This document shows positions 25,525 through 54,761 of a stretch of DNA of 64,000 nt, one piece after another; within the stretch, counting starts at the first letter, position 1, and every line of letters starts with the position of its first letter. This DNA comes from Cellulomonas flavigena DSM 20109 (GTDB lineage Bacteria > Actinomycetota > Actinomycetes > Actinomycetales > Cellulomonadaceae), in assembly GCF_000092865.1 (NCBI RefSeq), contig NC_014151.1, forward strand, positions 3,968,001 to 4,032,000, given 5' to 3'. The position numbers were made by a program, and so were the translations under genes. The notes under the pieces were generated by a model. It was not told where the DNA came from. It did no database searches and was given only the letters and a program-made list of their open reading frames with translations.

Positions 25525-25558
25525 GACCGACCACCCCGACCGACAGGAGTACCCCACC

Positions 25559-28118: not shown

Positions 28119-28122
28119 CGGC

Positions 28123-39900: not shown

Positions 39901-41142
39901 ATGACGGTCGCGCAGCCCGATGCAGAAGCCCCGCCGGCCCGGGCACCGTTCCCCCGGAGCGCGGGGGAGATCCTGGCGCGAGCCACGGCCGTCGCCCCGC
40001 TGCTGCGCGAGCGCTCGGGCGACATCGAGCAGGCGCGTCGCCTCCCTGCCGACGTGGTCGAGCTGCTGCGCGGGACGGGCGTCTTCGGGATGGGCTTCTC
40101 GAAGGAGTGGGGCGGGCCCGGGCTCAGCTCGGTCGAGCAGACCGAGGTGATCGAGGCCTTGTCCTACGGCGACGTCGCCGCCGGGTGGTGCGCCATGATC
40201 GGGTCCGACTCCGGCCTCTACGCGCAGTTCCTCGACGAGCCGGTGGCCCGGGCGATGTTCCCCCGTCCGGACATGGTCACGGCCGGGCTGCTCTTCCCGG
40301 CGGGGCGCGCCGAGGTCGTCGACGGCGGCTACCGGCTCTCGGGGCGGTGGCAGTTCGGCAGCGGGATAACTCACGCGGACTGGGTCGTGTCCGGCGCCTT
40401 CCTCTTCCGCGGCGGGCAGCCGGTTCCCGGTCCGGACGGCGATCCGCACGACTCGAAGCTGTTCATGGTGCCCCGCCGTGACGTGCAGGTCGTCGACACG
40501 TGGCACACCACCGGGCTGGCGGGCACGGGCAGCTGCGACTACGTCATCGAGGACGTCCTCGTCCCCGCCGAGCGGGCCCTGACCTTCGACGACGTGCGAT
40601 CAGGCTCGGGGGTGCTCGCGCACCCCGAGGTCCACATGCGCAACATGCCGGGCGTGGCGCTCGGGGTGGCACGAGCCGCCCTGGACCACGTCACGCAAGT
40701 CGTCGCGACCCGGCCCGGCGGGCCCTCCAGGCGACTCGCCGACGACTACCGCACCCAGGTCACCATCGCCGACTGCGAGGCGGACTTCGCCGCGACGCGC
40801 GAGTCGACGTACGGCGCGCTGCGCCGACAGCACGAGGTGCTGGCCGACCGCGGGGACCTGGCCGCCCTGACGCGGCGTGAGCGGGCGGCGCTGCCCCTCT
40901 CACGCCGGCACGCGTTCCGGACGGCCCGGTCGATCGTCACCCGCCTCTACGACCTCATGCAGACGAGCTCCATCTACCGGCCGTCCCCCTTGGACCGATG
41001 GCTGCGCGACACCACCACCATGTGCCAGCACATCGTGGCCCAGGACCGGATCGCGCAGTCCGCCGGAGCCCACCTGCTGGGCGGCACGCCGAGCTTCCCG
41101 CTGTCCCTCGGGATCACCGCGCAGGACCGGAGCCCTCGGTGA
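39901..41142 (+). CDS. acyl-CoA dehydrogenase-like flavin-dependent oxygenase
   Basis: The 413-residue protein has the ACAD fold: LLRGTGVFGMGFSKEWGGPGLSSVEQTEVIEALSYGDVAAGW, SGRWQFGSGITHADWVV (mid beta domain) and LAGTGSCDYVIEDVLVPAERAL. Within it, HTTGLAGTGSCD is the pattern of the group D two-component monooxygenases (HsaA/DszC-like), which use reduced flavin and O2 rather than acyl-CoA. Such enzymes also oxidise C-N and N-N compounds. A flavin reductase is encoded at 48621 in the same cluster. First gene of the rightward cluster. Confidence 0.75.
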   Translation: MTVAQPDAEAPPARAPFPRSAGEILARATAVAPLLRERSGDIEQARRLPADVVELLRGTGVFGMGFSKEWGGPGLSSVEQTEVIEALSYGDVAAGWCAMIGSDSGLYAQFLDEPVARAMFPRPDMVTAGLLFPAGRAEVVDGGYRLSGRWQFGSGITHADWVVSGAFLFRGGQPVPGPDGDPHDSKLFMVPRRDVQVVDTWHTTGLAGTGSCDYVIEDVLVPAERALTFDDVRSGSGVLAHPEVHMRNMPGVALGVARAALDHVTQVVATRPGGPSRRLADDYRTQVTIADCEADFAATRESTYGALRRQHEVLADRGDLAALTRRERAALPLSRRHAFRTARSIVTRLYDLMQTSSIYRPSPLDRWLRDTTTMCQHIVAQDRIAQSAGAHLLGGTPSFPLSLGITAQDRSPR

Positions 41143-41249
41143 CCGAGCGGCGCCCGCCAGCCGAGCCCCGGCACGACCCCCCGGCACGACCGACCGAAGC
41201 CGGCAATCACCGACGCACGACCGCAACCGACAACACAACGAGGTGGATC

Positions 41250-42587
41250 GTGACAGAACAGCACGTTGACGTCCTGATGATCGGGGCCGGCCCCGCCAAC
41301 CTGGCGCTGGCGATCGCGCTCGAGGAGTGCGGGGACGTCGATCTCGCCCGCAGCTCCCTGATCCTCGAGCAGTTCCCGGACGTGAAGTGGCAGCGCAACC
41401 TGCTCCTGCCGTGGGCGAGGAGCCAGGTGTCCTTCCTCAAGGACCTGGTGACGCTGCGCAACCCGCAGAGCCGCTTCTCGTTCCTCAACTACCTGCGCCA
41501 GCAGGGACAGCTCGACGAGTTCGTCAACCTGGCGACGTTCAACCCCTACCGCTGGCAGCTGTCGGCGTACCAGGAGTGGGTGGCCGAGCAGCTTGCGCAC
41601 GTCGGCATCCGGTTCAACTCGCGCGTCGAGCAGATCACTCCTCGGCACGGCGACGGGGGTGACGTCGTCGGGTGGGTCGCGCGCCTCTCCGACGGCACCT
41701 CGATCAGCTGCCGCGACCTGGTGGTCGGCATCGGACGAGCTCCCCGCGTCCCCGAGGCGTTCGCCGGGCTGCCCGCCGACCGCGTCGTCCACAGCACGCA
41801 GTACGGCACCCGGATGAAGCAGCTGAGCGCCGACCAGCGCCCCGAGCGTCCCGTTGTGATCGGAGGTGCCCAGAGCGCCGCCGAGATGTTCATGGCCCTG
41901 CACCAGGACGCCCCCACGTCACGGCCCACGCTGATCCACCGCTCGATCGGGCTGCAGAACTACCAGACCAGCAAGTTCGTGAACGAGCTGTTCTTCCCCT
42001 CGTTCGTCGACGAGTTCTTCCACATGCCCGCGGACGCCCGCCGGCACGTGCTGGACGAGATGCACCCGACCAACTACGCGGCGCTGGCGCCGCCGCTGCT
42101 CGACGAGATCTACTCGATGCTCTACCAGCAGCGCATGACCGGGCAGCAGCGTTCGACCGTGCGGTCGCTCACCGAGGTCGAGACGGCCCACATGGACGGT
42201 CCGGACGTCGTGCTGGACCTGCGCGACCGCAAAACCGGTGGCGTCGAGCAGCTCCGCTGCGACATGGTCTTCCTCGGCACGGGCTACGACCCGAGGATGC
42301 CACCGATCATCACCGACATCGCGCGCCGGCTCGACCGGCCTGACGTCGAGGTCAGCCGGCAGTACAGGATGGACCTCGGCCGGCCGACGCACGGTGCCGT
42401 CTACCTGCAGGGCGTCAACGAGCAGACCCACGGCATCGCGGACTCGCTGATCAGCGTGCTCGCGCACCGGTCGCAGGAGATCACGAGCGACCTGCTGGGA
42501 CGGCGGGTCGGGCTCGGACGCGACCCGTTCCCCGCGCCCGACTTCGCGCTCACGTCCGCCGCCCACGCCGTCGCGGCCGAGGTGTGA
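41250..42587 (+). CDS. L-lysine/L-ornithine N-monooxygenase
   Basis: This enzyme hydroxylates the side-chain amine of lysine or ornithine with NADPH and O2. The 445 residues contain MIGAGPANLALAIALEE (FAD loop), the NMO hallmark VKWQRNLLLPWARSQVSFLKDLVTLRNPQSRFSFLNYL, the NADPH site PVVIGGAQSAAEMFM and DMVFLGTGYDPR (the D-x3-L/F-A/G-T-G-Y motif). Lysine and ornithine enzymes cannot be told apart by eye. The next genes (cupin and MetRS-like) point to the lysine N6-hydroxylase that feeds hydrazine synthetases. GTG 41250 lies behind AGGTGG. Confidence 0.88.
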   Translation: MTEQHVDVLMIGAGPANLALAIALEECGDVDLARSSLILEQFPDVKWQRNLLLPWARSQVSFLKDLVTLRNPQSRFSFLNYLRQQGQLDEFVNLATFNPYRWQLSAYQEWVAEQLAHVGIRFNSRVEQITPRHGDGGDVVGWVARLSDGTSISCRDLVVGIGRAPRVPEAFAGLPADRVVHSTQYGTRMKQLSADQRPERPVVIGGAQSAAEMFMALHQDAPTSRPTLIHRSIGLQNYQTSKFVNELFFPSFVDEFFHMPADARRHVLDEMHPTNYAALAPPLLDEIYSMLYQQRMTGQQRSTVRSLTEVETAHMDGPDVVLDLRDRKTGGVEQLRCDMVFLGTGYDPRMPPIITDIARRLDRPDVEVSRQYRMDLGRPTHGAVYLQGVNEQTHGIADSLISVLAHRSQEITSDLLGRRVGLGRDPFPAPDFALTSAAHAVAAEV

Positions 42588-42961
42588 CGCCCATGTCCGA
42601 GCTCCGCGCCCTCGACCGGGCCAACCTCACGCCCGCGTACGGTCTCGACTCCCAGCGGCTCCTGCCGTGGCCCGCGCTCAACGCCCCGTTCGAGGGCGCC
42701 TGGTGCATCCTGCGGGCGGGACGCGAGTCGACGGCCCACGCCCACCACGAGTACGAGCTCTTCATCGCCCTGGCCGGGACGGCGGCGATCGTGGTCGACG
42801 GGGAACGTCGGCCGTTCACCGCGGGCGACATCGTGCAGCTCCCGCCGGGCAGCATGCACCACGTCGTCAACGACGGTGACCACGACTTCGAGTACTACGG
42901 CATCTGGTGGGACGCCGAGATGTCCGAGGGCTTCCTGGCCCGGCACGGTGAGACGCCGTGA
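42584..42961 (+). CDS. cupin protein; stand-alone cupin part of a hydrazine synthetase
   Basis: The 125-residue single cupin has both metal motifs in full: H-x-H-x3-4-E (HAHHEYEL, about residues 49-56) and GDIVQLPPGSMHHVVN (G-x5-P-x-G-x2-H-x3-N). In known hydrazine synthetases such a zinc cupin is fused in front of a MetRS-like domain and rearranges the O-acylated hydroxylamine into an N-N bond. Here it is a separate gene, overlapping the NMO gene (GTGA at 42584, or ATG at 42593) and the MetRS-like gene (GTGA). The split arrangement and its role are inference. Confidence 0.85.
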   Translation: MTPMSELRALDRANLTPAYGLDSQRLLPWPALNAPFEGAWCILRAGRESTAHAHHEYELFIALAGTAAIVVDGERRPFTAGDIVQLPPGSMHHVVNDGDHDFEYYGIWWDAEMSEGFLARHGETP

Positions 42962-44499
42962 ACGGCACGACGCTGGTCATCTCCCCGGCCCCCACCGCGA
43001 ACGGGGACCTGCACCTGGGCCACGTCGCCGGCCCCTTCCTGGCTGCCGACGTGCACACGCGCTACCTGCGGGCGACGGGTCGGCGTGCGCTGCTGGCGAC
43101 GGGGACACAGGACACGTCGACGTACGTCGTGACGACGGCGCACCGGCGGGGACTGGAGCCCCGGGAGCTCGCGCGTGCGTCGACGGCGCAGGTCGAGGCC
43201 GGCCTCGCCGCCCTCGGGATCGACGTGCACGCCTTCACGCGCGACGAGGACGCGTTCACCAAGGCCGTCCTGCAGTTCTTCGAGGGCCTGTACACGTCCG
43301 GCAAGCTCGAGCTCCGGACGATGGCGTTCCCCTACAACCCGGCCACCGGAGCCTTCCTCGCCGACGGCTTCGCGCGGGGAGGCTGTCCCCACTGCCTCGC
43401 CGCCGGGTGCGCAGGTCTTTGCGAGAGCTGTGGTCACGTGATCGCGGCCGGGGACCTCATCGACCCGGTCGACGCGCTCGACCCGACGGCGCCCGTCGAG
43501 CTGCGCGACGTCGACGTCCTGGTGCTGCCGCTCGAGCGGTACCGCGCCAGGATCCGCGAGCACCTCGCGCAGCACGGCGGCTCGATGCGCCCGCACATGG
43601 CACAGGCCGTCGCCGAGATGCTCTCCCACCCGCTCGCGGACCTGCCGGTCACCTTCCCGGTCTCCTGGGGCATCCCGGCTCCCTTCCCCGAGGTGTCCGG
43701 TCAGTCGATCAACCCCAACGCCGAGCCTGCCGCGTGGAGCATCTACTGCGGGGCGGTCGCGGCCGAGGCGAGCGGCACCGTGGGCCCGGGGGACGACGCG
43801 CTGTGGCGCTCCGACGCGGACACCCGGGTCGTCTACTTCCTGGGTTTCGACAACACCTACCCGTTCGCGATCGGCGCGGTCGCCATGCTGCTGGCCACCG
43901 ACGGCCGTCACCTCGTGCCGGCCGACTTCCTCACCAACGAGTTCTACGAGCTCGACAGCGCGAAGTTCTCGACGAGCCGAGGCCACGTGGTGTGGGCGAG
44001 CGACCTCGTCAGGACGGTGTCGCGCGACCTGGTGCGGTTCCACCTCGCCGCGACGAGCCCCGAGAGCCAGCGCACCGACTTCACGCACGCGGCGCTCGCC
44101 CGCGTGACGTCCGCGCGCCTCGTCGAGCCGTGGAACCGTGTGGTCGACCGGATGGACGCCCTGCGCAACGCGCGGAGCCTGCCGGTGTCGCCACGCTCAC
44201 GCCTGGCGGCGCAGCGCATCCGGTCGCGGTTCGCCGCCTGCTACGAGCTCGAGCACTTCAGCCTCACGCGCGCGGCCGACGTGCTCGCCGAGCAGCTGGC
44301 CAGGCTGGCCGCGTGGGACCTCGCCGCTCATGACGCCGGCGACTTCTGCCACGAGGTCGAGGTCGTCCTGCGGTGCGCCGCGCCCCTCCTGGTCGACCTC
44401 TCGCAGCAGGCGCTGGCGGACGTCTCGTTCCCCGACGGCGCCGGCCCGTCGACCGCCGAGCCGCTGAGCCTGCCGCGTCTCGTCGGGAGGCTCGGCTGA
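42958..44499 (+). CDS. MetRS-like enzyme; synthetase part of a hydrazine synthetase
   Basis: The 513-residue class I aminoacyl-tRNA synthetase paralogue has the HIGH motif as HLGH (APTANGDLHLGHV, about residues 12-24), a zinc knuckle GCPHCLAAGCAGLCESCGH and the KMSKS loop as KFSTSRGHV. FLGFDNTYPFAIGAVAMLLA is the MetRS core. Unlike housekeeping MetRS it sits in a biosynthetic operon between cupin and flavoprotein genes. In hydrazine synthetases this domain activates an amino acid with ATP and transfers it to N-hydroxylysine; whether it uses glycine, glutamate or another amino acid cannot be read here. Confidence 0.88.
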   Translation: MNGTTLVISPAPTANGDLHLGHVAGPFLAADVHTRYLRATGRRALLATGTQDTSTYVVTTAHRRGLEPRELARASTAQVEAGLAALGIDVHAFTRDEDAFTKAVLQFFEGLYTSGKLELRTMAFPYNPATGAFLADGFARGGCPHCLAAGCAGLCESCGHVIAAGDLIDPVDALDPTAPVELRDVDVLVLPLERYRARIREHLAQHGGSMRPHMAQAVAEMLSHPLADLPVTFPVSWGIPAPFPEVSGQSINPNAEPAAWSIYCGAVAAEASGTVGPGDDALWRSDADTRVVYFLGFDNTYPFAIGAVAMLLATDGRHLVPADFLTNEFYELDSAKFSTSRGHVVWASDLVRTVSRDLVRFHLAATSPESQRTDFTHAALARVTSARLVEPWNRVVDRMDALRNARSLPVSPRSRLAAQRIRSRFAACYELEHFSLTRAADVLAEQLARLAAWDLAAHDAGDFCHEVEVVLRCAAPLLVDLSQQALADVSFPDGAGPSTAEPLSLPRLVGRLG

Positions 44500-44500
44500 C

Positions 44501-45652
44501 ATGGCCACCACCGGCTCCGCGCCGACCCTGCCACCGCGCGGTGCGCGCTCGGCCACGCGACGGCACGTCGTGGTGGTGGGCGCCGGTGTCACCGGGCTCC
44601 TCACGGCCATGGGTGCCGCCACCCAGGGGCATCGCGTGACGCTCCTGGACCGGGGCGCGGTGCCGGACGAGGGGTCGACCTCCTTCGACCGTCACCGTGT
44701 GGTCCGTGCTCTGGATCCCGGCGACCTGCGACGCAGTCGTCGCGACGCCCGCCTGCGGAGTCTGTGGCTCGACCTGGAGGACAGGCTGCGGACGTACGAG
44801 AGCGAGGGTCTCGTACGCCGCACCGGCGTGCTGACCGGGTGGGACGCCGACGACGCCCGGCGCGCCGAGGCGGCTGCGGCCCGTGCGGGGATCGTCGTCA
44901 CCCGGGTGCCGACCGATCACTACCCCGAGCTCGGGACCGCCCCGGACGCCGACGTGCTGCTCGAGACCGAGGCGGGCGTCGTCCTCGCGGACCGCGCCCT
45001 GGTCGCGGCGGCGCGGTGGCTGGCCGCGTGCCCGGAGGTGACGATCCTGGCCGGGGTCGAGGTCACCCGTGTCGACGCGTCCACCGGGACCGTGCACGGG
45101 GTCGACGGTCCCGTCGCCCGGGGCGACCTCACGCTCGTGGCGTGCGGGCCCTGGTCCGGCGCCCTGGTGGGCGTCCCTGTCCAGCTGCACCGCCAGACGA
45201 TGGCCTACCTGCGACCGCCGGCCGGGCTGCGCGACTGGTGGCGCGGCGCACCGGTCGCGGGTCGTCTGGGCGTCGACGCACGCGGCTGGGTCGTCCCAGC
45301 GGTCGGCGGTTCCTCGATCAAGGTCAGCACCGACGCCGTGCGACGCACGGTCTCCTCGACCGACTGGGACGCGGACGCCGACGAGTCCGTCTGGTGCGAG
45401 CGGATCCTGCGTTCCGGTGCGGTCCGCCGCCTGGGCGACTACACGGTGACATCCGTCCGCCGCTGCCACTACGCGACGTCCGACCACGGAGACGCCCTCG
45501 GCCTGGCGCGCCTCGGCCCCGGGGTGTGGTCGCGCGTCGCCAGCGGGCCCGACGGCTTCCGCACCGCCCCGATCGCCGCGGAGCAGGTGCTCCGCGAGCT
45601 CCGACCCACCCCACCACCCACAGCCCCACGGACACGGAAGCAGGCGTCATGA
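44501..45652 (+). CDS. FAD-dependent oxidoreductase (glycine oxidase/DAO family)
   Basis: The 383-residue protein has HVVVVGAGVTGLLTAMGAA (FAD loop, about residues 22-40) and the DAO-family end SDHGDALGLARLGPGVWSRVASGPDGFRTAPI. In the s56-p1 and triacsin routes a flavoprotein of this kind oxidises the lysine-hydrazine conjugate, releasing hydrazinoacetate and the aldehyde of aminoadipate. The gene is one base after the MetRS-like gene and overlaps the ligase gene (ATGA), so the same job is likely here. Confidence 0.8.
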   Translation: MATTGSAPTLPPRGARSATRRHVVVVGAGVTGLLTAMGAATQGHRVTLLDRGAVPDEGSTSFDRHRVVRALDPGDLRRSRRDARLRSLWLDLEDRLRTYESEGLVRRTGVLTGWDADDARRAEAAAARAGIVVTRVPTDHYPELGTAPDADVLLETEAGVVLADRALVAAARWLAACPEVTILAGVEVTRVDASTGTVHGVDGPVARGDLTLVACGPWSGALVGVPVQLHRQTMAYLRPPAGLRDWWRGAPVAGRLGVDARGWVVPAVGGSSIKVSTDAVRRTVSSTDWDADADESVWCERILRSGAVRRLGDYTVTSVRRCHYATSDHGDALGLARLGPGVWSRVASGPDGFRTAPIAAEQVLRELRPTPPPTAPRTRKQAS

Positions 45653-46947
45653 ACGAATCCCCGACCGCAGTGCTCGTCATCGGCAGCGGTCTCAAGCTGT
45701 ACCGCGAGTACCTCCTCAGCTCCGCGGCAGAGAGGGCCCGGGACGCCGGGCACGCGGTCGTCCTGGTCAACAACCTGCAGCCGACCTGGCAGCGCGCGTA
45801 TGTCGACGAGGTCCGCGTGGTCAACGTCTTCGACCACGCCCTCCTCGCCGAGGCCGCGCGCGAGGTCGCCACGCGGTACCGCGTCGTCGCGGTCCTGTGC
45901 TGGGACGAGCCGCTGGTGATGCCGGCAGCAGAGCTGGCCGAGGAGTTCGGCGTCCCCGGGCTCAGCACCCCCGGCGTCCACGGCTGCCGGGACAAGGTCA
46001 GCGCCCGCACGCGGCTCACCCGCGCCGGGGTGCTGCAGCCCATGTTCGAGATGGCGGCCGATCTCGAGCACGCGCGCGCCGCCGCCGCTCGCATCGGCTT
46101 CCCGGTCGTGGTCAAGCCCCGCGCGCTGGGCGCGAGCATGGGTGTGGTCCTCGCGCGGACCGACGCCGAGCTGACGAGCGCGTTCCAGGTCGCGTCCGAC
46201 GCCAGCCTCGTGGGTGACGAGCCGTTCCGGGGCGGTGCCATTGTCGAGGAGTACGCCGTCGGGCCGGAGATCAGCATCGACGGGGCGATCCACAAAGGCG
46301 AGTACCAGCCCATGTTCGTGGCGCGCAAGTGCACCGGCGAGCACCCCTACTTCGAGGAGACCGGCCACGTCGTCGACTCCGCCGACCCGCTCCTGTCGGA
46401 CCCGGTGCTCCTGGAGACGCTGTCACGGGCCCACGAGGTCCTCGGCGTCGAGGACGGCATCACGCACACCGAGGTCCGGCTGACGGATCGCGGGCCTCTG
46501 ATCATCGAGATCAACGGCCGCGTGGGCGGTGACCTGATCCCGTACCTCGGCAAGCTCGCGACCGGGATCGACCCTGGCCGCGTCATGGTGGACGTCGCAC
46601 TCGGCGTCCGCCCGGACGTCACCCGACCCACCCGGGGCGTCGCCGGTATCAGGTTCGGCTACCCGGACGACGACTGCGTCGTGCACGCCGTCCGGGTGCC
46701 GCAGGAGGCACCCGGACTGGTGCTGGCCTCGCCCATGGTGGAGCCGGGAGCCGTCCTGCGCCTGCCACCCGGGGGGTACATCGCGCGCCACTCCTTCGTC
46801 ATCTGCGAGGGGCAGGACGCGGCCGAGTGCGAGGCGCGGCTCCAGGCCGCGAGCGACCTGGTGGTGCTCGAGGCCGACGAGGTCGAGCGCAAGCCCGTCG
46901 GGGCGGTACTGGAGATGCCCGCCGGCCTGCTGGACGTGGACGCATGA
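45649..46947 (+). CDS. ATP-grasp ligase (carboxylate-amine ligase)
   Basis: The 432-residue protein has an N-terminal Rossmann-like part (VLVIGSGLKLYREYLLSSA), an ATP-grasp core with FPVVVKPRALGASMGVVLA, AIVEEYAVGPEISIDGAI and THTEVRLTDRGPLIIEINGRVGGDLIPYLG, and a C-terminal domain of about 120 residues. Such enzymes form amide or hydrazide bonds by acyl phosphates. In this cluster it could condense a hydrazine or hydrazino acid with a carboxylate. Substrates are not known. Confidence 0.85.
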   Translation: MNESPTAVLVIGSGLKLYREYLLSSAAERARDAGHAVVLVNNLQPTWQRAYVDEVRVVNVFDHALLAEAAREVATRYRVVAVLCWDEPLVMPAAELAEEFGVPGLSTPGVHGCRDKVSARTRLTRAGVLQPMFEMAADLEHARAAAARIGFPVVVKPRALGASMGVVLARTDAELTSAFQVASDASLVGDEPFRGGAIVEEYAVGPEISIDGAIHKGEYQPMFVARKCTGEHPYFEETGHVVDSADPLLSDPVLLETLSRAHEVLGVEDGITHTEVRLTDRGPLIIEINGRVGGDLIPYLGKLATGIDPGRVMVDVALGVRPDVTRPTRGVAGIRFGYPDDDCVVHAVRVPQEAPGLVLASPMVEPGAVLRLPPGGYIARHSFVICEGQDAAECEARLQAASDLVVLEADEVERKPVGAVLEMPAGLLDVDA

Positions 46948-47309
46948 TCGACTACGAGGGTCGCGTGTTCCGCAGGGCGGGCGGCGCGGACGCAGCACGC
47001 GCCCGCTACCACCAGTCGGGCCGGCACGTGTGGGCGCACGTCGAGGGCGGACCGGTCGTCGTCGGCACCCTCGCCGGGCAGTGCGACGACGACGGGAAGC
47101 TCTCGCTCGCCTACGCGCTGGCCCTCGGGACGGGTGTCGTGGTGGCCGGCCGCACGACCAACGTGCCCGAGGTGCGCGCCGACGGCAGCGTCGTGCTGCG
47201 CGAGGAGTGGCAGCGCAGCAGCCCCGACGTCTCCTGCGGGGTCTCGTACCTCGAGGAGGTCCGGGGCGCCGCCGCGGAGCCGACCGAGGCCCGGGAGGGA
47301 GCCCGATGA
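46944..47309 (+). CDS. small uncharacterised protein (family often labelled N-acetylglutamate synthase)
   Basis: The 121-residue protein reads YEGRVFRRA, YHQSGRHVWAHVEGGPVVVGTLAGQCDDDGKL, VVAGRTTNVPEVRADGSVVLREEWQ and GVSYLEEV. This matches a small beta-rich family found widely in bacteria; the common database label has no experimental support that I know of. It overlaps both neighbours (ATGA on each side), so it is clearly in the operon. Function unknown. Confidence 0.7.
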   Translation: MIDYEGRVFRRAGGADAARARYHQSGRHVWAHVEGGPVVVGTLAGQCDDDGKLSLAYALALGTGVVVAGRTTNVPEVRADGSVVLREEWQRSSPDVSCGVSYLEEVRGAAAEPTEAREGAR

Positions 47310-48661
47310 CCGACTTCGACGACCTCCGCAGGGCCGTGCGCGGCACCCTGCGCATGCCCGGCGACGCCGGGTTCGCCGAACGCACCCGCCCGTTCAACGA
47401 GCGCTTCCGGGACTCGCTCCCGAACGCCGTCCTCACGCCGGTAAGCGTGCAGGACGTCAGCGCGGCCGTGACGTGGGCCGGTCGGCACGGCGTGCCGGTC
47501 GTGCCACGGGGCGGCGGTCACAGCTACGCCGGCCACTCCTCGTCCCCAGGGCTCGTGCTGGACCTCACCCACCTCGACCGGGTCGACGTCGACCCCCGCA
47601 CCGGACTCGTCATCGTCGGGGGCGGCACCCGGATGGGGGTCCTGTCCGCGGCGCTGCGGGAGCACGACCTCGCGCTGCCCCTGGGCAACTCCGACGACGT
47701 GGGCATCGGGGGGCTGGTCCTCGGCGGCGGCGTCTCGGTCGTCTCCCGTGCCATGGGCCTGACCTGCGACACCCTGGTGTCGACGGACGTCGTCCTGGCC
47801 GATGGGCGGACCGTGACCTGCGACGACGACGACCACGCCGACCTCTTCTGGGCCTGCCGCGGCGGCGGCGGCGGGAACTTCGGCGTCAACACGTCCTTCA
47901 CGTTCCAGGCGCAGGCGACCCGCCCGACCTCGACCTGCATCCTCCTGTGGGAGGGACGGCACGCGTTCGACGTCCTGGCCACCATGCAGGAGGTGATGGA
48001 GCGCGCACCCGACGAGTTCTCCGCGCGGACCGGCGTCAGTCGCGCACCGGGAGCGGAGGCCGTCGTCTCGGTCGTGGGTCAGCACCTGGGCCCGCCCGAG
48101 GAGCTCCGTGAGCTCCTCGCACCCGCCGTCGCGATCGGTCCCCCGACCCGGCTGGACATCGCCGACACCACCTTCTGGGACGCGGCGGCGCTGCTGCGGC
48201 ACACGACGGCGGGAGGTGCGTACGCCGTGCGGACGCGGACCACGCCGACGTCGATCGGCGCCGATGGTCTGAAGACGCTGGTGACGGCCGTCGACGACTG
48301 GCCCGGCGGCACCAACCCCGACGGCGCCGGAGTCGCCCTGTTCGCCTGGGGCGGCGCCATCAACCAGGTGCCGGCCGATGCGACGGCCTTCCCTCATCGG
48401 GACGTGCGGTTCCTCGTGGCGATGGACACGTCCTGGGGCCGGACCGACCCGCCGGAGAGCGTCCGGGACAACCTGGCGTGGCTCCACCACCTGCACCGCG
48501 ACATGGGAGACCACGCGCGCGACGCGGCGTACGTGAACTTCACGGACCCGGACCTCACCGACTGGCGCACCGGCTACTACGGGCCCAACTCCGACCGGCT
48601 CGCGGAAGTGAAGCGGCGATATGACCCTCGACGCGTCTTCTCCTTTGCCCAGGCCGTCTGA
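47306..48661 (+). CDS. BBE-type FAD-linked oxidase
   Basis: The 451-residue protein is a berberine-bridge-enzyme-like flavoprotein. Its FAD domain has VPRGGGHSYAGHSSSPG, where His72 would bind FAD covalently, and GIGGLVLGGGVSVVSRAMGL. The cysteine used for a second covalent link in bicovalent members is absent, so a single link is expected. It ends YYGPNSDRLAEVKRRYDPRRVF, the family C-terminus. It may oxidise a C-N or N-N bond of the cluster product. Confidence 0.85.
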   Translation: MTDFDDLRRAVRGTLRMPGDAGFAERTRPFNERFRDSLPNAVLTPVSVQDVSAAVTWAGRHGVPVVPRGGGHSYAGHSSSPGLVLDLTHLDRVDVDPRTGLVIVGGGTRMGVLSAALREHDLALPLGNSDDVGIGGLVLGGGVSVVSRAMGLTCDTLVSTDVVLADGRTVTCDDDDHADLFWACRGGGGGNFGVNTSFTFQAQATRPTSTCILLWEGRHAFDVLATMQEVMERAPDEFSARTGVSRAPGAEAVVSVVGQHLGPPEELRELLAPAVAIGPPTRLDIADTTFWDAAALLRHTTAGGAYAVRTRTTPTSIGADGLKTLVTAVDDWPGGTNPDGAGVALFAWGGAINQVPADATAFPHRDVRFLVAMDTSWGRTDPPESVRDNLAWLHHLHRDMGDHARDAAYVNFTDPDLTDWRTGYYGPNSDRLAEVKRRYDPRRVFSFAQAV

Positions 48662-49202
48662 GGCGCGGCTCACCCTGCCCCGTCCCGACGTCCCGGGATG
48701 GGCGGGGAGCCCCGGGACCGGGGCGGGCCTGCGCGACGTGATGCGCGGGTTCGCGACCGGCGTCTGCTTGGCGACGACCTACCGCGACCGGCAGGGCGAC
48801 CGGCAGCACGACGTGCTGACGGTCAACTCGCTGACGTCGCTGTCGCTCGATCCGCCGCTCGTCGCGGTGTCGTTGCGACGCGACTCGGCGTTCCTGGAGG
48901 ACCTCAAGGACAGCGGCGCGTGGGCGGTGTCCATCCTCGCGGGCGGCGACTCGGACGTGGCCAGGAGCTGTGCGCGTGGACGGGCTGCGCGCCGCGACCT
49001 GGTCCACGAGCTGCCGGCGTCGCCGGGCAGCGCCACCGGCGCGCTCGTCATGCACGGGTCGAGCTGGCTCGAGTGCGTGACGTGGGCGAGCTTCGACGTC
49101 GGCGACCACGTGCTGGTGGTCGGCGAGGTCGTCGCCCTGAACGAGCGCGGGGAGGACCAGGCCCTCGTGTTCCTGCACAGCCGGTTCCACGCCGTGGAGT
49201 AG
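48621..49202 (+). CDS. flavin reductase family protein
   Basis: The 193-residue protein has the split-barrel flavin reductase pattern: VMRGFATGVCLATT, VLTVNSLTSLSLDPPLVAVSLRRDS, AWAVSILAGGD, WLECVTWASFDVGDHVLVVGEVV. It would supply reduced FMN or FAD to the ACAD-like oxygenase at 39901. The ATG lies 41 bases inside the end of the BBE gene. Confidence 0.8.
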   Translation: MTLDASSPLPRPSEARLTLPRPDVPGWAGSPGTGAGLRDVMRGFATGVCLATTYRDRQGDRQHDVLTVNSLTSLSLDPPLVAVSLRRDSAFLEDLKDSGAWAVSILAGGDSDVARSCARGRAARRDLVHELPASPGSATGALVMHGSSWLECVTWASFDVGDHVLVVGEVVALNERGEDQALVFLHSRFHAVE

Positions 49203-49267
49203 CACCTGGAACAGCTCGGCTCCCCCACGACCCCCGACCCCTCGCACCATCACCGACGGAGGATTCC

Positions 49268-50836
49268 ATGCAGGCAACGACGACGCTGGCCGACCCGGCG
49301 ACCACCACCCGGGACGCCCGGGACCTCGACGCGATCATCACCTACCACGGGACCGAGCCCGAGAACGCCCTCATCCCCGGCCACACCACCGAGTCGGGCG
49401 GGGTCAAGGTGATCGCGGCCCTGTTCCGGGGTCTGGTCTCCTACGACCCCGTCGACGCCCACCCGCGCAACGCCGTCGCCGAGTCGATCGAGTCCGACGA
49501 CTCCCGGGTCTTCACGATCCGTCTGCGCCGCGACTGGACGTTCCACGACGGCACGCCCGTCACGGCCCACAGCTTCGTGGACGCCTGGAACCACACGGCC
49601 TACGGACCGAACAGGATGCTGGGCTCGACGTTCCACGCGCACATCGACGGCTTCGCGGAGGTCAACGCCCCCGACTCCACCGTCACGGCCATGTCAGGGC
49701 TGACCGTGCTCGACGACCACACGTTCACGGTCACGCTGTCCGCGCCGTTCGCCGAGTTCCCGGTCACGCTCGGGTGCAGCGCGTTCTTCCCGCTCCCGGC
49801 GTCGTTCTTCACCGACCGCGAGGGGTTCGAGGCGCACCCGATCGGCAACGGCGCCTTCCGCTTCGTGTCCCGCCGGCCCGAAATCAACATCCTCCTGCAC
49901 CGCTACGAGGGGTACGCCGGTGACGACCGCCCGCAGATCGGCGGCGTCGAGTTCAAGATCTACGCGAGCCTGGACGACGCCTACCACGACGTCGTGGCCG
50001 ACCGGCTCGACTACCTCGACGTGACGCCGTACTGGTCGCTGCAGGACGACCGCTACCTGCGCGACCTACCCGGGCGCACGCACGACCGGACGTACCTCGG
50101 CATCCAGACGATCTCGTTCCCGCTCTACGACGCCCGGTACGCCGACGCGCGCGTGCGGCAGGCCATCTCCATGTCGATCGACCGGGAGCAGCTGGTCGAG
50201 ACGATCTTCCGGGGGCACCAACTGCCGGCCGACGGCCTGGTCCCGCCCGCGGTCTCCGGGCGCATCGAGGGCCAGGGCGGGCAGCTGTGCACCTACTCCC
50301 CCGCCCGGGCCAAGGAGCTCTTCGACGCGGCGGGCTTCGAGGGCGACATCGAGCTCACGTCCAACGTCGACTCACCCAACCGCCCGTGGATGGAGGAGAT
50401 CTGCGCGTCGGTCGAGGAGGTGCTCGGCGTGCGCTGCCGCTTCCTCGCCATCCCGACCATGGGCGAGTTCCGTCGCAGGCTCAACGCCCTCGAGGTCACG
50501 GCGATGTTCCGCTCCGGCTGGATCGCCGACTACCCCTCGATCGAGAACTTCCTGAGTCCCATGTTCCGCACCGGTGCCACCGACAACGTCGGCAGGTACA
50601 GCAACCCGGCCGTGGACGCGCTGCTCGACGCCGCCGACTCGGCCCCCACCCAGGAGGAGGCGTGGGCGAGGTACCAGGAGGCCGAGCGGGCCATTCTCCA
50701 CGACATGCCGACGATCCCGATCTGGCACCAGAGCACGCTCTCGGCGTGGTCGACCCGACTGCGTGACGTTCAACCGAACCCCTTCCGTGAGCTGGACCTC
50801 TCCAGCGTCACGGTGACCTCCGCGCCGACGAGCTGA
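49268..50836 (+). CDS. family 5 (peptide) ABC substrate-binding protein lacking a signal peptide
   Basis: The 522-residue protein has the DppA/OppA layout: FRGLVSYDPVDAHPRNAVAESIESDD, WTFHDGTPVTAHSFVDAWN, FPLYDARYADARVRQAISMSIDREQLVE and GWIADYPSIENFLSPMF. CGGAGGATTCC gives a strong ribosome binding site for ATG 49268. The N-terminus (MQATTTLADPATTTRDARDL) has no hydrophobic core and no lipobox cysteine, so the protein should stay in the cytoplasm unless the start is wrong. No permease or ATPase genes are nearby. It may bind a pathway intermediate or work in resistance. Confidence 0.85.
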   Translation: MQATTTLADPATTTRDARDLDAIITYHGTEPENALIPGHTTESGGVKVIAALFRGLVSYDPVDAHPRNAVAESIESDDSRVFTIRLRRDWTFHDGTPVTAHSFVDAWNHTAYGPNRMLGSTFHAHIDGFAEVNAPDSTVTAMSGLTVLDDHTFTVTLSAPFAEFPVTLGCSAFFPLPASFFTDREGFEAHPIGNGAFRFVSRRPEINILLHRYEGYAGDDRPQIGGVEFKIYASLDDAYHDVVADRLDYLDVTPYWSLQDDRYLRDLPGRTHDRTYLGIQTISFPLYDARYADARVRQAISMSIDREQLVETIFRGHQLPADGLVPPAVSGRIEGQGGQLCTYSPARAKELFDAAGFEGDIELTSNVDSPNRPWMEEICASVEEVLGVRCRFLAIPTMGEFRRRLNALEVTAMFRSGWIADYPSIENFLSPMFRTGATDNVGRYSNPAVDALLDAADSAPTQEEAWARYQEAERAILHDMPTIPIWHQSTLSAWSTRLRDVQPNPFRELDLSSVTVTSAPTS

Positions 50837-50929
50837 CACGACGGGCCGCCGCCGCGATCCCGGACGCCGCCGCGAGCAGGGGCGTCGCGGCGGCGGTCCC
50901 GCGGTGCTCGCGCGGGCGCAGGGCCGCGC

Positions 50930-51913
50930 TCAGCCTACCGACTCCTTGCCGCGGAAGGTCCCGCGGTAGGCGCTCGGGGCGATCCCGAGGGCGGCGGACA
51001 TCTGCACCCGCAGGGTCGCGCCGGTGCCGAACCCCGACTGCTCCGCGACCTGGTCGATCGGCAGGTCGGTCGCCTCCAGCAGGTGTCGCGCCCGCTCCAG
51101 GCGCTGCTGCGCCACCCACCTGCTGGGGCTCAGTCCCGTCTCGTCGCGGAACCGCCGCGTGAACGTGCGCGTGCTCATCCGTGCCCGCGCGGCGAGCTGC
51201 GGCAGGTCGAGCGGCTCGTCGAGGTGCTCGAGCGCCCAGGTACGGGCTGCCGAGGTCGACGAGTCCGTCTCCCTCGGGACGGGACGCACGATGTACTGCG
51301 CCTGACCTCCCGCCCGCCAGGCCGGCACCACGCAGCGCCGAGCCGCGAGGTTGGCGACCTCGCTGCCGTGGTCGTCCCTCACGACCTGGAGACACAGGTC
51401 GATCCCGGCACCCACGCCGGCGGACGTGGAGATCGGCTCGTCGTGCACGAAGAGCACGTCGGGATCCAGCTCCACCGCGGGGAACAGGCTCCGGAACGTC
51501 TCGGCGTGGGCCCAGTGGGTCGTGGCGCGCATCCCGTCGAGCAGGCCGGCAGCCGCGAGGACGAAGGCACCCGTGCAGATGGACATGATCCGGGCCCCGC
51601 GAGCGTGAGCCGAGCGCAGGGCGTCGACGATCTCCTGGTCGATCGCTCCGCTCGTCATCACCTCGGCGCCGTAGTACACGCCGGCCACCAGCACGGTGTC
51701 CGCCGTGGCGAGCGCCTCCAGCCCGTGCTCGGGAGTGACCGTGAACCCCGCCGCGGTCCGCACCGGCCTGCCGCCGAGCGTGCAGGTCTGCACACGGTAG
51801 AAGCGCTGGTTCTGCGCGTCGGTCGCCGCGTGGAACACCTGGGCGGGCATCCCGAGGTCGAAGGCGACCACGTCGTCGAGCGCGAGAACGGCGACCTGGT
51901 GCTGCCGGGGCAT
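50930..51913 (-). CDS. GlxA-like AraC-family regulator with DJ-1/PfpI domain
   Basis: The 327-residue protein has a DJ-1/PfpI-like domain (VAVLALDDVVAFDLGMPAQVF; the nucleophile-elbow region is IMSICTGAFVLAAAGLL, with Cys near residue 113) and a C-terminal AraC double helix-turn-helix: LDLPQLAARARMSTRTFTRRFRDETG and DQVAEQSGFGTGATLRVQM. It is divergent from the MFS gene, which starts 92 bases away, and is likely its regulator. Confidence 0.85.
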   Translation of the reverse strand: MPRQHQVAVLALDDVVAFDLGMPAQVFHAATDAQNQRFYRVQTCTLGGRPVRTAAGFTVTPEHGLEALATADTVLVAGVYYGAEVMTSGAIDQEIVDALRSAHARGARIMSICTGAFVLAAAGLLDGMRATTHWAHAETFRSLFPAVELDPDVLFVHDEPISTSAGVGAGIDLCLQVVRDDHGSEVANLAARRCVVPAWRAGGQAQYIVRPVPRETDSSTSAARTWALEHLDEPLDLPQLAARARMSTRTFTRRFRDETGLSPSRWVAQQRLERARHLLEATDLPIDQVAEQSGFGTGATLRVQMSAALGIAPSAYRGTFRGKESVG

Positions 51914-52004
51914 GCCTCGATGATCGCACGCGTGGCCGGATTCTTGCAGAGGATGGCCGACTCACCACTTACGCCCCGGGCCTCACGTTGGCCACGCTGG
52001 CCAG

Positions 52005-53306
52005 GTGACTCGGAACCGACAGCTCCTGCCGTGGATGATCGCCTTCGTCGCACTCGTCGGGGCGGCCGGTTTCCGCGCCACGCCTGGTGCGCTCGTCCAG
52101 CCGCTGCAGGACGAGTTCGGGTGGTCGACGGGGACCATCGGGTTCGCCATGTCGGTGAACCTGGCCCTGTACGGCGTCACGGCGCCGTTCGCCGCGGCGC
52201 TGATGGAACGGTTCGGCGTACGGGCCGTGACCGCGTCGGCGATGACGCTGATCGCCCTCGGCAGCGGCCTGACCGTCTTCATGACCACCTCGTGGCAGCT
52301 CGTCATGCTGTGGGGCGTGCTCGTCGGGCTGGGCGCCGGCTCGATCTCGCTGGGTTTCGTCGCGACCATCGGGACGCGGTGGTTCGTCCGGCGCCAGGGG
52401 CTGGTCACCGGGGTGCTGTCCGCCGGCGGCGCCACCGGTTCGCTGGTTTTCCTGCCGCTCGTCGCCTCGCTCGCCGAATCGCCCGCGGGTTGGCGGACGG
52501 CCTCCGTGGTCATCGCCGCGGTCGCCCTGGCCACGGTGCCGATGATCCTGCTCCTCTTCCGCGAGCACCCGGCGGACTTCGGCATCCCGCCGTACGGCGG
52601 CGACGAGGTCGTCGAGCCGGAGCCGCAGTCGAAGAACGCGGCACGACTGGCCGTCGAGGGGCTCGTCAAGGCCTCGCGGTCGAAGGCCTTCTGGTTCCTC
52701 GCGGCCGGGTTCGCCATCTGCGGTGCGACCACCAACGGCCTGGTCGCCACCCACTTCATCCCGGCGGCCCACGACCACGGGATGCCCAACGTGACGGCGG
52801 CGGGCCTGCTCGCCCTGATCGGCATCTTCGACCTGGTCGGGACCATCCTGTCCGGCTGGCTGACGGACCGGTTCGACTCACGCAAGCTGCTCGCCGTCTA
52901 CTACGCGCTCCGGGGTCTGTCGCTGCTGGTTCTCCCGTCGGTGTTCCACGACGAGATCACGGGGCTGATGCTCGTGTTCGTCTTCTTCTACGGCATGGAC
53001 TTCATCGCCACCGTGCCGCCGACGGTCGCCCTGTGCCGGATCCACTTCGGCATGAGCGCGCCCATCGTCTTCGGCTGGGTGTTCGCCTGCCACCAGATCG
53101 GCGCGGCCATCGCGGCGACGGCCGCCGGGATGACGCGGGACCAGTACGGCGCGTACACGCCCGCGTGGTACGTCGCCGGTGCCCTGAGCATCGTCGCGGT
53201 GTTCCTCTCGCTGCGGATCGCGGGCTCGAAGGTCGACCGCGAACCGCCCGTCCCGGGCGAGGACAGGGAGCTGGACGTGGTCGCGGCGGAGAAGGCGCGC
53301 GGCTGA
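52005..53306 (+). CDS. MFS transporter, OFA/monocarboxylate-type
   Basis: The 433-residue protein has about twelve membrane helices and the MFS loop GWLTDRFDSRKLLAVYY between helices 8 and 9. The start PWMIAFVALVGAAGFRATPGALVQPLQDEFGWSTG and the loop FVRRQGLVTGVLSAGGATGS are those of the oxalate/formate and monocarboxylate group. GTG 52005. In this context it may export the product or take up a precursor acid; direction cannot be read from sequence. Confidence 0.8.
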   Translation: MTRNRQLLPWMIAFVALVGAAGFRATPGALVQPLQDEFGWSTGTIGFAMSVNLALYGVTAPFAAALMERFGVRAVTASAMTLIALGSGLTVFMTTSWQLVMLWGVLVGLGAGSISLGFVATIGTRWFVRRQGLVTGVLSAGGATGSLVFLPLVASLAESPAGWRTASVVIAAVALATVPMILLLFREHPADFGIPPYGGDEVVEPEPQSKNAARLAVEGLVKASRSKAFWFLAAGFAICGATTNGLVATHFIPAAHDHGMPNVTAAGLLALIGIFDLVGTILSGWLTDRFDSRKLLAVYYALRGLSLLVLPSVFHDEITGLMLVFVFFYGMDFIATVPPTVALCRIHFGMSAPIVFGWVFACHQIGAAIAATAAGMTRDQYGAYTPAWYVAGALSIVAVFLSLRIAGSKVDREPPVPGEDRELDVVAAEKARG

Positions 53307-53393
53307 CCGACAGCCGTAGCCTGTGCGGGCCGGGGGGGGTGAGTGGCGCCGTCCCCCAGTGCGAGACGACGACGTCCTCGGGGGGCACCGATC

Positions 53394-54761
53394 ATGGCAA
53401 GGCCAGAGAATCCCATCGCCTCGGCCAACACGGCGGTGGCGGCTTTCGCGGAGGACCTCCGCCGGCTCCGCAGCGACGCAGGCAGTCCGACCTACCGTGA
53501 GCTGGCGCGGTACGCGCTGTTCTCCGCGTCCGTCCTGTCGAGCGCTGCGAGCGGCCAGAGGCTCCCCAGCCTGCAGGTCACCCTGGCCTTCGTCGCGGCC
53601 TGCGGCGGTGACCGCGAGGCGTGGCGCAACCGCTGGCTGCAGCTGGCCATGCTCACCGGCGGGGAGATCGTGCGCGAGCGCCGCCAGCCGGAGGCCTCGA
53701 CGCCGCGGCCCGCGCAGCTCCCGTCGCGGCAAGGGCTGCTCATCGGTTGCCGACCCCACCTCGAGCACCGCATCGCACCGGGCACCTCCACCGTCGTGGT
53801 GAGCGGCCCTCCCGGCACGGGTCGACGAGCCTTCGCGCTGGACCTGGCGCACCGCCTCGCCCGCGAGGCACCGGACGGGCAGCTCTACGCGGACCTCGGG
53901 CACGTCACCGGCGCGTCGCTCGGCACGAAGTGCGTGATGGAGCACTTCTTGGTCGCCCTCGGGATCTCGCTCGCCGAGCAGCCGCTCGACCTCGAGAAGC
54001 AGGCGGAGCTGTACCGGTCGATCCTGGCGGAACGTCGCCTGGTCGTCCTCCTCGTGAACGCCGGCGACGAGCACCAGGTCCGGCCCTTCGTGGGCGAGTC
54101 GACGACGAGCACGACGCTGGTCGTCTCGACGCGCCGCATGAGCGGCCTCCCCGGCGCCGTCGACGTCCCGCTCGGCAGGTTCACGCGCGCCGGGGCCGCC
54201 GCGATCGTGGCCAGGGCGTTCGACGTCCGGCAGGACGGCCCGCTGGTCGCGCAGGTCGCCGAGCTGTGCGCAGACATGCCGCTCGCGATCGACGTCACCC
54301 TCCGCAAGCTGGTCGGGACCTCCCGCCCGCTCGACGCCGCCGTCGCCGCTCTCGCCGACCCGTCCCGCGCCCTCCGGTGGCTCGACCACCACGACCTCTC
54401 CGTCCGCGAGGCGCTGCTGGCCCGCTTCCGTTCGGTCGACCCCGAGGCGCAGTCGTTCCTCGTGCGCATCGCTCGCGAGAAATCGCTCAGTGCCGCGGCG
54501 ACGCGTCTCGAGACGGAGGCTGAGATCACCGACCATCTCGTCGAAGCCGGTCTCGTACGGCACGGCGCGGGGGGTGACCTGGACGTCGACCGCCTCGTGC
54601 GGGCTCTCGTGCTCGCGGAGGGACGCCCTCTGCCCGCCTGTGGCCGCATCGCTCACCTCCCCCACGCCCGTGCGAAGCGGTCGCGCTCCCACGGCGCGAA
54701 GACCTCACGTGCGGCTGACCTCGCCGCCTGGCGACGACCGGACACCGGTTCTCACACGTAA
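53394..54761 (+). CDS. XRE-like regulator with degenerate NB-ARC ATPase domain
   Basis: The 455-residue protein begins with a helix-turn-helix (residues 15-75: FAEDLRRLRSDAG, SVLSSAASGQRLPSLQVTLAFV) and continues with an AfsR/NB-ARC-like domain. Walker A reads GPPGTGRR, so the invariant lysine and Ser/Thr are both arginine, and Walker B reads VVLLVNAGDEHQV without the usual acidic pair. ATP hydrolysis is therefore doubtful. RFTRAGAAAIVARAF and PLAIDVTLRKL match the winged-helix section of STAND regulators. It probably controls the N-N cluster. Start ATG 53394, behind GGGGGG. Confidence 0.75.
   Translation: MARPENPIASANTAVAAFAEDLRRLRSDAGSPTYRELARYALFSASVLSSAASGQRLPSLQVTLAFVAACGGDREAWRNRWLQLAMLTGGEIVRERRQPEASTPRPAQLPSRQGLLIGCRPHLEHRIAPGTSTVVVSGPPGTGRRAFALDLAHRLAREAPDGQLYADLGHVTGASLGTKCVMEHFLVALGISLAEQPLDLEKQAELYRSILAERRLVVLLVNAGDEHQVRPFVGESTTSTTLVVSTRRMSGLPGAVDVPLGRFTRAGAAAIVARAFDVRQDGPLVAQVAELCADMPLAIDVTLRKLVGTSRPLDAAVAALADPSRALRWLDHHDLSVREALLARFRSVDPEAQSFLVRIAREKSLSAAATRLETEAEITDHLVEAGLVRHGAGGDLDVDRLVRALVLAEGRPLPACGRIAHLPHARAKRSRSHGAKTSRAADLAAWRRPDTGSHT

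Follow-up and report, generated by a model that had tools for sequence, protein, structure and literature searches.

What small molecule would be made by a row of genes that sets an N-monooxygenase, a cupin and a MetRS-like protein beside a ligase and a series of flavin enzymes, and how much of that row is new? The question is raised by a 64,000-nucleotide stretch of Cellulomonas flavigena DSM 20109 (contig NC_014151.1), hereafter the window. An earlier note had read positions 39901..54761 as an uncharacterised gene cluster for a hydrazine-type natural product, and a Pfam scan together with open reading frame positions finds the genes it named where it placed them (Table 1). We consider the gene set at 38883..54761 to be probably a biosynthetic cluster for a small N-N compound, predicted to operate without NRPS or PKS enzymes. 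Its N-N-forming core is already known; the extended set is new.

Gene content of the cluster

Table 1. Predicted genes of the Cellulomonas flavigena cluster, in window coordinates.
Position	Strand	Predicted product	Match or remark
38883..39713	-	PF13714 (PEP mutase / isocitrate lyase superfamily) protein	Pfam 270.4 bits; divergent from operon
39901..41142	+	ACAD-fold flavin-dependent (group D type) monooxygenase, P0001	NCBIfam HsaA 147.3 bits, cut-off 450
41250..42587	+	Lys/Orn-type flavin N-monooxygenase	PF13434 Lys_Orn_oxgnase 292.5 bits
42584..42961	+	Zinc-type cupin, proposed N-N-forming rearrangement enzyme	PF07883 52.6 bits
42958..44499	+	MetRS-like amino-acid-activating protein of hydrazine synthetase, P0004	PF09334 tRNA-synt_1g 195.1 bits
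44501..45652	+	DAO-fold FAD oxidoreductase, proposed oxidative C-N cleavage of hydrazine adduct	PF01266 73.4 bits
45649..46947	+	ATP-grasp ligase of L-amino-acid-ligase type	PF13535 ATP-grasp_4 60.8 bits
46944..47309	+	Small protein, predicted 8-strand all-beta fold	No Pfam or NCBIfam match
47306..48661	+	BBE/EncM-like FAD oxidase	FAD_binding_4 and BBE (Pfam)
48738..49202	+	Flavin reductase, P0009	PF01613 Flavin_Reduct 109.5 bits
49268..50836	+	Family-5 (oligopeptide-type) solute-binding protein	PF00496 194.7 bits
50930..51913	-	AraC-type regulator with DJ-1/PfpI domain	Pfam
52005..53306	+	MFS transporter, probable exporter	MFS_1 136 bits
53343..54761	+	Putative regulator	No Pfam match; family in many relatives

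Across 41250..48661 every gene junction is a 4-base overlap or a 1-base gap, in agreement with the 1- to 4-base spacing described previously (gene content here and in relatives comes from a GC-frame gene caller, which called later starts for three genes in this interval). The absence of assembly-line enzymes claimed for the locus also holds, since none of the 14 cluster proteins, two of them without any Pfam match, has an NRPS or PKS domain by Pfam. The same scan of the 14 proteins returned no carrier protein, AMP-forming ligase or N-acyltransferase domain, and a condensation domain was absent genome-wide at E 0.001, with 4 of 14 genomes positive in the control. Promoter and terminator scans gave 0 sites against 0.2 in shuffles and 2 sites against 2.2, respectively, repeats were limited to short weak matches, and the window contains no RNA families or tRNAs. 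The approximately 11 kb at 39901..50836 holds several flavin enzymes and the ligase.

Outside the core, the ACAD-fold protein best matches Rv3094c in the PDB (170 bits) and then 3-HSA hydroxylase (121 bits). Its occurrence with a flavin reductase nearby is the sequence pattern of a two-component ACAD-fold flavin monooxygenase, and the reductase is its probable partner. The ligase matches L-amino acid ligase BL00235 and BacD best (75 bits) and carries the motif EINGR; its ATP-grasp_4 match lies above the cut-off, its LAL_C2 match (26.7 bits) below the cut-off of 29.4. The BBE oxidase matches PDB 9p1o (207 bits) and EncM (191 bits) and contains RGGGHSYAG. For the binding protein, comparison of its N-terminus with nine relatives by eye showed no visible signal peptide. 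The small protein, modelled by AlphaFold2 with eight strands at a pLDDT of 89.9, may be a beta barrel. As an exclusive marker of hydrazine clusters it was rejected, having relatives in 15 other genomes of 396, none of which contains a match to the MetRS-like protein at E 1e-70.

A hydrazine synthetase core already in print

The MetRS-like protein retains the class-I motifs noted before, HLGH at residue 19 and KFSTS at residue 336. It does not group with true MetRS, a concern of the earlier note: in a quick tree that included eight Cellulomonadaceae outgroup rows, a branch of 1.96 changes per column (SH-aLRT 100) separates it from the organism's own housekeeping MetRS, which is encoded elsewhere. 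The cupin has a predicted ligand set of H52, H54, E58 and H92, with the motif HAHHEYE at residue 52, and its closest PDB matches are 4rd7 (154 bits), 4mv2 (123 bits) and 5uqp (35 bits). At the level of sequence, the spacing of its ligands and invariant glutamate is identical to that of PyrN from the pyrazomycin pathway (H50/H52/E56/H90) and RHS1 from Rhodococcus jostii (D63/H65/E69/H103), in which E56 and E69 are the corresponding catalytic glutamates and of which RHS1 is likewise a stand-alone cupin (PMC8664883). With the N-hydroxylase gene adjoining, the proposal of a hydrazine synthetase core is well borne out.

The description of the locus as uncharacterised fares less well. Table 2 of PMC11705231 already lists the pair D5UDN8-D5UDN9 (ADG76495/ADG76494) from C. 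flavigena DSM 20109 as an identified hydrazine synthetase, and because the genome has a single MetRS-like paralogue, the core chemistry is both supported and in print. In addition, Iyer et al. (2010) described neighbourhoods of MtRS paralogue, cupin and lysine monooxygenase, the same core, with ATP-grasp, binding protein and dimethylargininase genes in some (PMC2922099). The product predicted in that account was a Met-Lys dipeptide, N-N formation is not proposed in its treatment of these neighbourhoods, and Cellulomonas is not named in what its main text says of them (PMC2922099).

The closest described pathways are those of s56-p1 (Spb38/Spb39/Spb40) and triacsin (Tri26/Tri27/Tri28), which share an N-hydroxylase, a cupin and MetRS-like synthetase and a DAO-family cleavage enzyme with the Cellulomonas cluster (PMC11705231). 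Unlike in those pathways as set out there, the Cellulomonas cupin and MetRS-like protein are two proteins; an ATP-grasp ligase, a BBE oxidase and an ACAD oxygenase lie alongside; and the 14 proteins scanned include no carrier protein or AMP-ligase. The PyrN and RHS1 clusters differ in another respect, as they contain a putative saccharopine dehydrogenase gene (PMC8664883), whereas no domain of that type is found among the 14 cluster proteins and the DAO-fold flavoprotein occupies its place. Two further comparisons were set aside on published accounts of the pathways: negamycin was ruled out as the product as its hydrazine is made by a heme enzyme, and the N-nitroglycine and DOB clusters for their reliance on carrier, NRPS or PKS steps.

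Conservation of the extended gene set

For comparison, 39 loci with a best-segment MetRS identity of at least 44% were treated as close, and 40 of the remaining 41 loci, at no more than 42%, as distant (L059, in which no genes were called, was not counted). Six neighbour families of the MetRS-like gene occur in 15-31 of the 39 close loci and in 0 of the 40 distant ones, across a split chosen once the neighbourhoods had been given an initial look and with genes poorly called in low-GC loci (L055 and L058 among them). Among these, the small-protein family is found in 31 close loci, that of the putative regulator (53343) in 23, and that of the PF13714 gene in 15, each with 0 of 40 distant; on this count the PF13714 gene is included in the cluster, which thus reaches further left than the 39901 start given earlier. 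The DAO-fold family is present in 35 close and 3 distant loci, with a mean identity to the window copy of 44% as against 53-65% for the other cluster enzymes measured. The BBE, small-protein and ligase families together range over 28-35 of 39 close loci, with BBE at 28.

Other members are looser. The ACAD-fold family occurs in 28 close loci and the flavin reductase family in 16, so that they are missing from 11 and 23 of 39, respectively, several close loci being cut by contig ends. The ACAD gene sits at either operon end in relatives, and in Amycolatopsis relatives the BBE and cupin genes lie on the opposite strand. Of the 39 close loci, 9 carry the window's MFS family and 24 a second MFS family that is also present in 2 of the 40 distant ones. 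With its family in 4 close and 2 distant loci, the AraC regulator is only weakly linked to the cluster.

In the tree, the MetRS-like protein falls in a 38-row clade spanning eight actinomycete families, and recurrence over so many families argues that the gene arrangement is not due to chance. Pairwise distances of the MetRS-like protein correlate with those of eleven neighbour families (r 0.47-0.92, none reached in 999 permutations), as expected if the gene block travels together, in a test that also carries the shared relatedness of the species. Judged from these predicted genes, the extended set defines a separate branch among hydrazine-synthetase clusters, reported as new here.

Simpler or related gene sets are carried on Pantoea and Deinococcus plasmids, and the core also occurs on a Klebsiella plasmid. 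The Deinococcus ficus cluster has a gene annotated as PF13714-type alongside. In both of the Pantoea records examined (L083 and L085, two of four), the N-monooxygenase, cupin and MetRS-like genes are accompanied by an FAD oxidoreductase, an MFS transporter, an ATP-grasp ligase and a binding protein. Compared with Cellulomonas, this mini-cluster adds a GNAT gene, lacks the BBE, ACAD and reductase genes and has a binding protein of a different family. Its retention of core, ligase, transporter and binding protein without BBE or ACAD suggests that the shared trunk is a ligated hydrazino compound. Pantoea natural product 3 (PNP-3) was considered as the mini-cluster's product but not adopted: the two gene sets have eight genes each, but the mini-cluster measures 8,057 bp at 50.2% GC in L083 and that of PNP-3 8,487 bp at 49.06% GC, and PNP-3 is described as confined to Pantoea while the core is on the Klebsiella plasmid as well.

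Proposed pathway and alternatives

We propose that the N-monooxygenase would make N6-hydroxy-lysine (or the ornithine homologue), that the MetRS-like protein would adenylate a second amino acid and pass it to the hydroxylamine oxygen, and that the zinc cupin would rearrange the resulting ester to a hydrazine. By published work on the enzyme family, these three steps almost certainly operate. The DAO-fold flavoprotein, whose best PDB match is a weak one to monomeric sarcosine oxidase (28 bits), would then cleave one C-N bond to release a free hydrazino acid, a step that gene order and fold make very probable.

Which bond is cut matters for what follows. Apy10 and Spb39 belong to one family yet cut different C-N bonds (PMC11705231), and if the Cellulomonas enzyme acted as reported for Apy10, the hydrazine would stay on the lysine-derived part and the ligase and oxidases could form a ring or a hydrazide. 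We regard this as unlikely, as the actinopyridazinone ring is reported to form by a carrier-protein-mediated route (PMC11705231) and no carrier protein is found among the 14 cluster proteins by Pfam.

On the preferred reading, in which a free hydrazino acid is released, the later steps and the identity of the product are what we infer. Coupling of the hydrazino acid with a further amino acid by the ATP-grasp ligase, a step we lean towards, would yield a compound that is peptide-like or a hydrazide. Oxidation of the ligated compound would fall to the EncM-like oxidase and to the ACAD-fold oxygenase working with its reductase; that it takes place at the N-N unit itself we hold tentatively, at somewhat less than an even chance. 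The MFS protein would export the product, and the signal-less binding protein may hold it inside the producer. The hydrazide, hydrazone or diazo compound suggested in the earlier note fits no better than a hydrazino or N-oxidised dipeptide would.

To reach the diazo compound, a hydrazone would be N-oxidised, a reaction shown for Dob3 in the dob pathway (PMC13061610) and proposed for azaserine. Further flavin enzymes in the cluster could oxidise nitrogen, but the hydrazone routes as described use a carrier-bound intermediate, azaserine adding succinylation and carrier loading, and the 14 cluster proteins show neither a domain for a carrier, an adenylating ligase or an acyltransferase nor a diiron oxidase like Dob3. 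We think this end product distinctly improbable.

Less probable again is that only the hydrazine core (41250-45652) forms one pathway and that the ACAD, BBE, binding protein and regulator genes belong to a neighbouring, separate trait. The two Pantoea plasmids do carry the core without ACAD and BBE, and GC content reveals no clear island (0.723 inside the cluster, 0.747 to the left, 0.708 to the right), but the ligase, small-protein and BBE genes trail the core with 4-base overlaps, recur with it in most close loci and have distances that track those of the MetRS-like protein.

A siderophore N-monooxygenase beside a spare housekeeping MetRS in an accidental neighbourhood has next to no probability, even with ornithine hydroxylases as the best PDB matches of 41250 (3s5w, L-ornithine 5-monooxygenase, which we take to be PvdA, 258 bits; MbtG, 212; KtzI, 200), given that the true MetRS lies elsewhere, that gene order is kept in many loci, and that a second strong N-monooxygenase match at 0.23 Mb sits beside PLP decarboxylase, acetyltransferase and IucA/IucC genes while Pfam finds no IucA/IucC among the 14 cluster proteins. 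The siderophore question raised in the earlier note thus leaves the hydrazine reading intact.

Carrying that reading to its end, we speculate that the cluster and its relatives make undescribed hydrazino dipeptides, free of ribosome and NRPS, in which an alpha-hydrazino acid would be joined by the ligase and then N-N-oxidised by the EncM-like flavoenzyme and the ACAD-fold N-oxygenase; as a complete proposal this is rather doubtful.

Implications

The literature searched names no product for this cluster branch. Going by what is generally known of hydrazino acids, hydrazino dipeptides may be imported like other peptides and target PLP enzymes. Members of the branch are found in eight actinomycete families and simpler relatives on Pantoea plasmids; the host here is a type strain whose genome is finished and whose synthetase pair is already on record (PMC11705231). 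At about 11 kb, the 39901-50836 segment is small enough to be expressed whole, so that a new class of hydrazine-derived products would be directly testable.

Gene content and the published core

A codon-position GC gene caller and translation resolved fourteen genes between 38883 and 54761 in a host genome that is a single contig of 4,123,179 bases and includes the window. The run of N-monooxygenase, cupin, MetRS-like, and flavoprotein genes described in the earlier note was confirmed at the domain level by Pfam and NCBIfam, and the tight spacing claimed for it holds, with the junctions from 41250 to 48661 being 4-base overlaps or 1-base gaps. Elsewhere in the window (17040-28452), the gene caller places consecutive genes resembling those for glycosyltransferases, nucleotidyltransferases, epimerases, and sugar kinases, which together look like a sugar-nucleotide cluster.

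Cluster genes and neighbor families, with family counts at close (39) and distant (40) loci among the best 80 of at least 262 stretches
Feature	Position	Match	Close	Distant
PF13714 gene	38883, left edge, divergent	Pfam	15/39	0/40
ACAD-fold oxygenase	39901, upstream of core	Pfam/NCBIfam	28/39	0/40
Lys/Orn-type N-monooxygenase	41250	Pfam/NCBIfam	38/39	30/40
Cupin	42584	Pfam/NCBIfam	33/39	18/40
MetRS-like protein	within pair, 42584-44499	Pfam/NCBIfam		
DAO-fold flavoprotein	44501	Pfam/NCBIfam	35/39	3/40
ATP-grasp protein (either copy)	45649	Pfam/NCBIfam	35/39	1/40
Small all-beta protein	46944-47309	none in Pfam or NCBIfam	31/39	0/40
BBE-type oxidase	47306	Pfam/NCBIfam	28/39	0/40
Flavin reductase	48738	Pfam/NCBIfam	16/39	0/40
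Family-5 binding protein	49268-50836	Pfam/NCBIfam	9/39	0/40
AraC-type regulator	50930, right side	Pfam	4/39	2/40
MFS transporter (window type)	52005, right side	Pfam	9/39	0/40
Right-hand protein	53343, right side	none in Pfam		
Second MFS family			24/39	2/40
Right-hand protein at 53343, a putative regulator			23/39	0/40
DDAH-like	absent from window		15/39	0/40
Response-regulator-like	absent from window		15/39	2/40

The cluster had been called uncharacterised, a description that is not supported as worded, since its core and the cupin/MetRS-like pair are already in print. The review PMC11705231, citing PMC8664883, places D5UDN8-D5UDN9 (ADG76495/ADG76494) of Cellulomonas flavigena DSM 20109 under 'Other Identified Hydrazine Synthetases', and going by this listing we take these proteins to be the pair at 42584-44499. 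Members using glycine, serine, alanine, and tyrosine are reported in the main text of PMC8664883 without assignment to individual pairs. For PyrN and RHS1, the same paper describes a MetRS-like part that activates an amino acid to give an O-acyl hydroxylamine, which a zinc cupin turns into the hydrazine, an invariant glutamate being required (PMC8664883). Residues H52, H54, E58, and H92 of the window cupin have spacing identical to that in the PyrN and RHS1 cupins.

A literature search of open-licence papers found no product for a cluster with such a gene set. The window set lacks both PF00501 and PF13302 (an AMP-ligase and an acetyltransferase, respectively). Both are among the Pfam criteria by which, according to PMC13061610, 129 clusters were found. 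ATP-grasp, binding-protein, and dimethylargininase genes have previously been noted around such cores (PMC2922099).

Separation from siderophore and housekeeping enzymes

Two alternatives had been named, a siderophore enzyme and a true MetRS. A PF13434 search of the genome returned five places, strong at the cluster and at 0.23 Mb (400 bits) and weak (22-27 bits) at the other three. The siderophore-type set lies at the separate 0.23 Mb locus, where the N-monooxygenase gene is accompanied by one for IucA/IucC and by PLP decarboxylase and acetyltransferase genes. No condensation domain was found in the genome at E 0.001.

The genome encodes one MetRS-like paralogue, in the cluster, and one housekeeping MetRS, and the two fall apart in a 72-row tree built by a quick method with long branches flagged. 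The window protein sits inside a 38-row clade (SH-aLRT 100) together with 37 close loci (from the best 80 of at least 262), drawn from Pseudonocardiaceae, Nocardiopsidaceae, Thermomonosporaceae, Frankiaceae, Streptomycetaceae, Micromonosporaceae, and Nocardiaceae, the window itself representing Cellulomonadaceae. Five Cellulomonadaceae MetRS, including the one from the window's own genome, were taken as housekeeping and are set apart by a branch 1.96 changes per column in length. Three further Cellulomonadaceae rows (L088, L094, L105) fall outside this housekeeping group, and thus some genomes of the family carry distant MetRS-like paralogues. The other two close loci, L035 and L036, form part of a sister group, and rows from Pantoea and Deinococcus cluster with them and with L087 beside the 38-row clade.

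Among MetRS chains of solved structures, the top matches to the window protein are 9l8v and 9vq4, titled 'Methionine-tRNA ligase' (195 bits versus 133). Both sequences carry KFSTG, and from sequence they may be hydrazine-synthetase-like proteins instead of tRNA ligases.

Putative tailoring enzymes and possible product

The nearest solved structures to the oxidase at 47306 are 9p1o and EncM. Doubly linked BBE enzymes carry a cysteine at a site occupied by serine in this oxidase. For the oxygenase at 39901, the closest solved structures are Rv3094c and 3-HSA hydroxylase; because ACAD-fold oxygenases include amine N-oxygenases such as VlmH and KijD3, it is possible by analogy that this enzyme catalyzes an N-oxidation. 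Among solved structures, the ATP-grasp ligase is closest to L-amino-acid ligases. Family-5 binding proteins are a type known for oligopeptides, and the one encoded here would fit a peptide-like product. Judged by eye from gene-caller starts, no signal peptide is apparent in it or in its relatives at L003, L005, L006, L018, and L072, and those at L009, L016, L017, and L049 have a lipoprotein-like N-terminal signal. The protein may have turned cytoplasmic, with a role in self-protection.

Hydrazine clusters are not the only setting for relatives of the small all-beta protein. Of the four genomes inspected (L129-L132), two (L129 and L132) have such a relative next to a thiO-like gene, along with thiS- and thiG-like genes.

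Distribution and simpler relatives

The 38-row clade is rare: among 200 genomes of the window's family, a close copy was found in the window's own genome alone (other matches ≤37% identity), and among 396 genomes across the phylum that genome alone gave a match at E 1e-70. GC is 0.723 within the set, 0.747 to its left, and 0.708 to its right, and GC3 differs weakly from the left side (p 0.03, 14 versus 41 genes); composition does not settle whether horizontal transfer occurred.

Relatives came from a scan of one genome per species (84,980 species), in which at least 262 stretches encode one; the best 80 loci were kept and divided by MetRS identity into close (≥44%) and distant (≤42%). For eleven neighbor families (10 to 39 rows), distances track MetRS-like distances with r from 0.47 to 0.92, the lowest being ATP-grasp, where paralogues enter the comparison; in each family, 0 of 999 permutations reached the observed r. 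Extra genes were noted in some relatives (L022, L023, L025, L031, L032, L034). In Lentzea, Actinacidiphila, and Kitasatospora these are a second ACAD gene and a gene that Pfam assigns, at L031, to B12-binding radical SAM proteins; in Amycolatopsis they are instead an FAD_binding_3 monooxygenase and a DUF6875 gene.

Plasmid records matching at E 1e-20 numbered 97, and five were examined. Those of Pantoea agglomerans and P. ananatis encode N-monooxygenase, cupin, MetRS-like, FAD oxidoreductase, MFS, ATP-grasp, binding, and GNAT proteins, and the Klebsiella variicola record shows the first three before it ends. Alongside its core, Deinococcus ficus encodes three ATP-grasp proteins as well as binding, FAD_binding_4, and PF13714-type proteins; the match region of Streptomyces sp. 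BHT-5-2 is without annotation. The two Pantoea plasmids among those bearing cores at L083, L084, and L085 (Pantoea and Klebsiella variicola) were typed conjugative. The Pantoea plasmids and the window have in common the core, ligase, MFS, and binding protein, and the BBE, ACAD, and reductase genes look like additions onto this common trunk.
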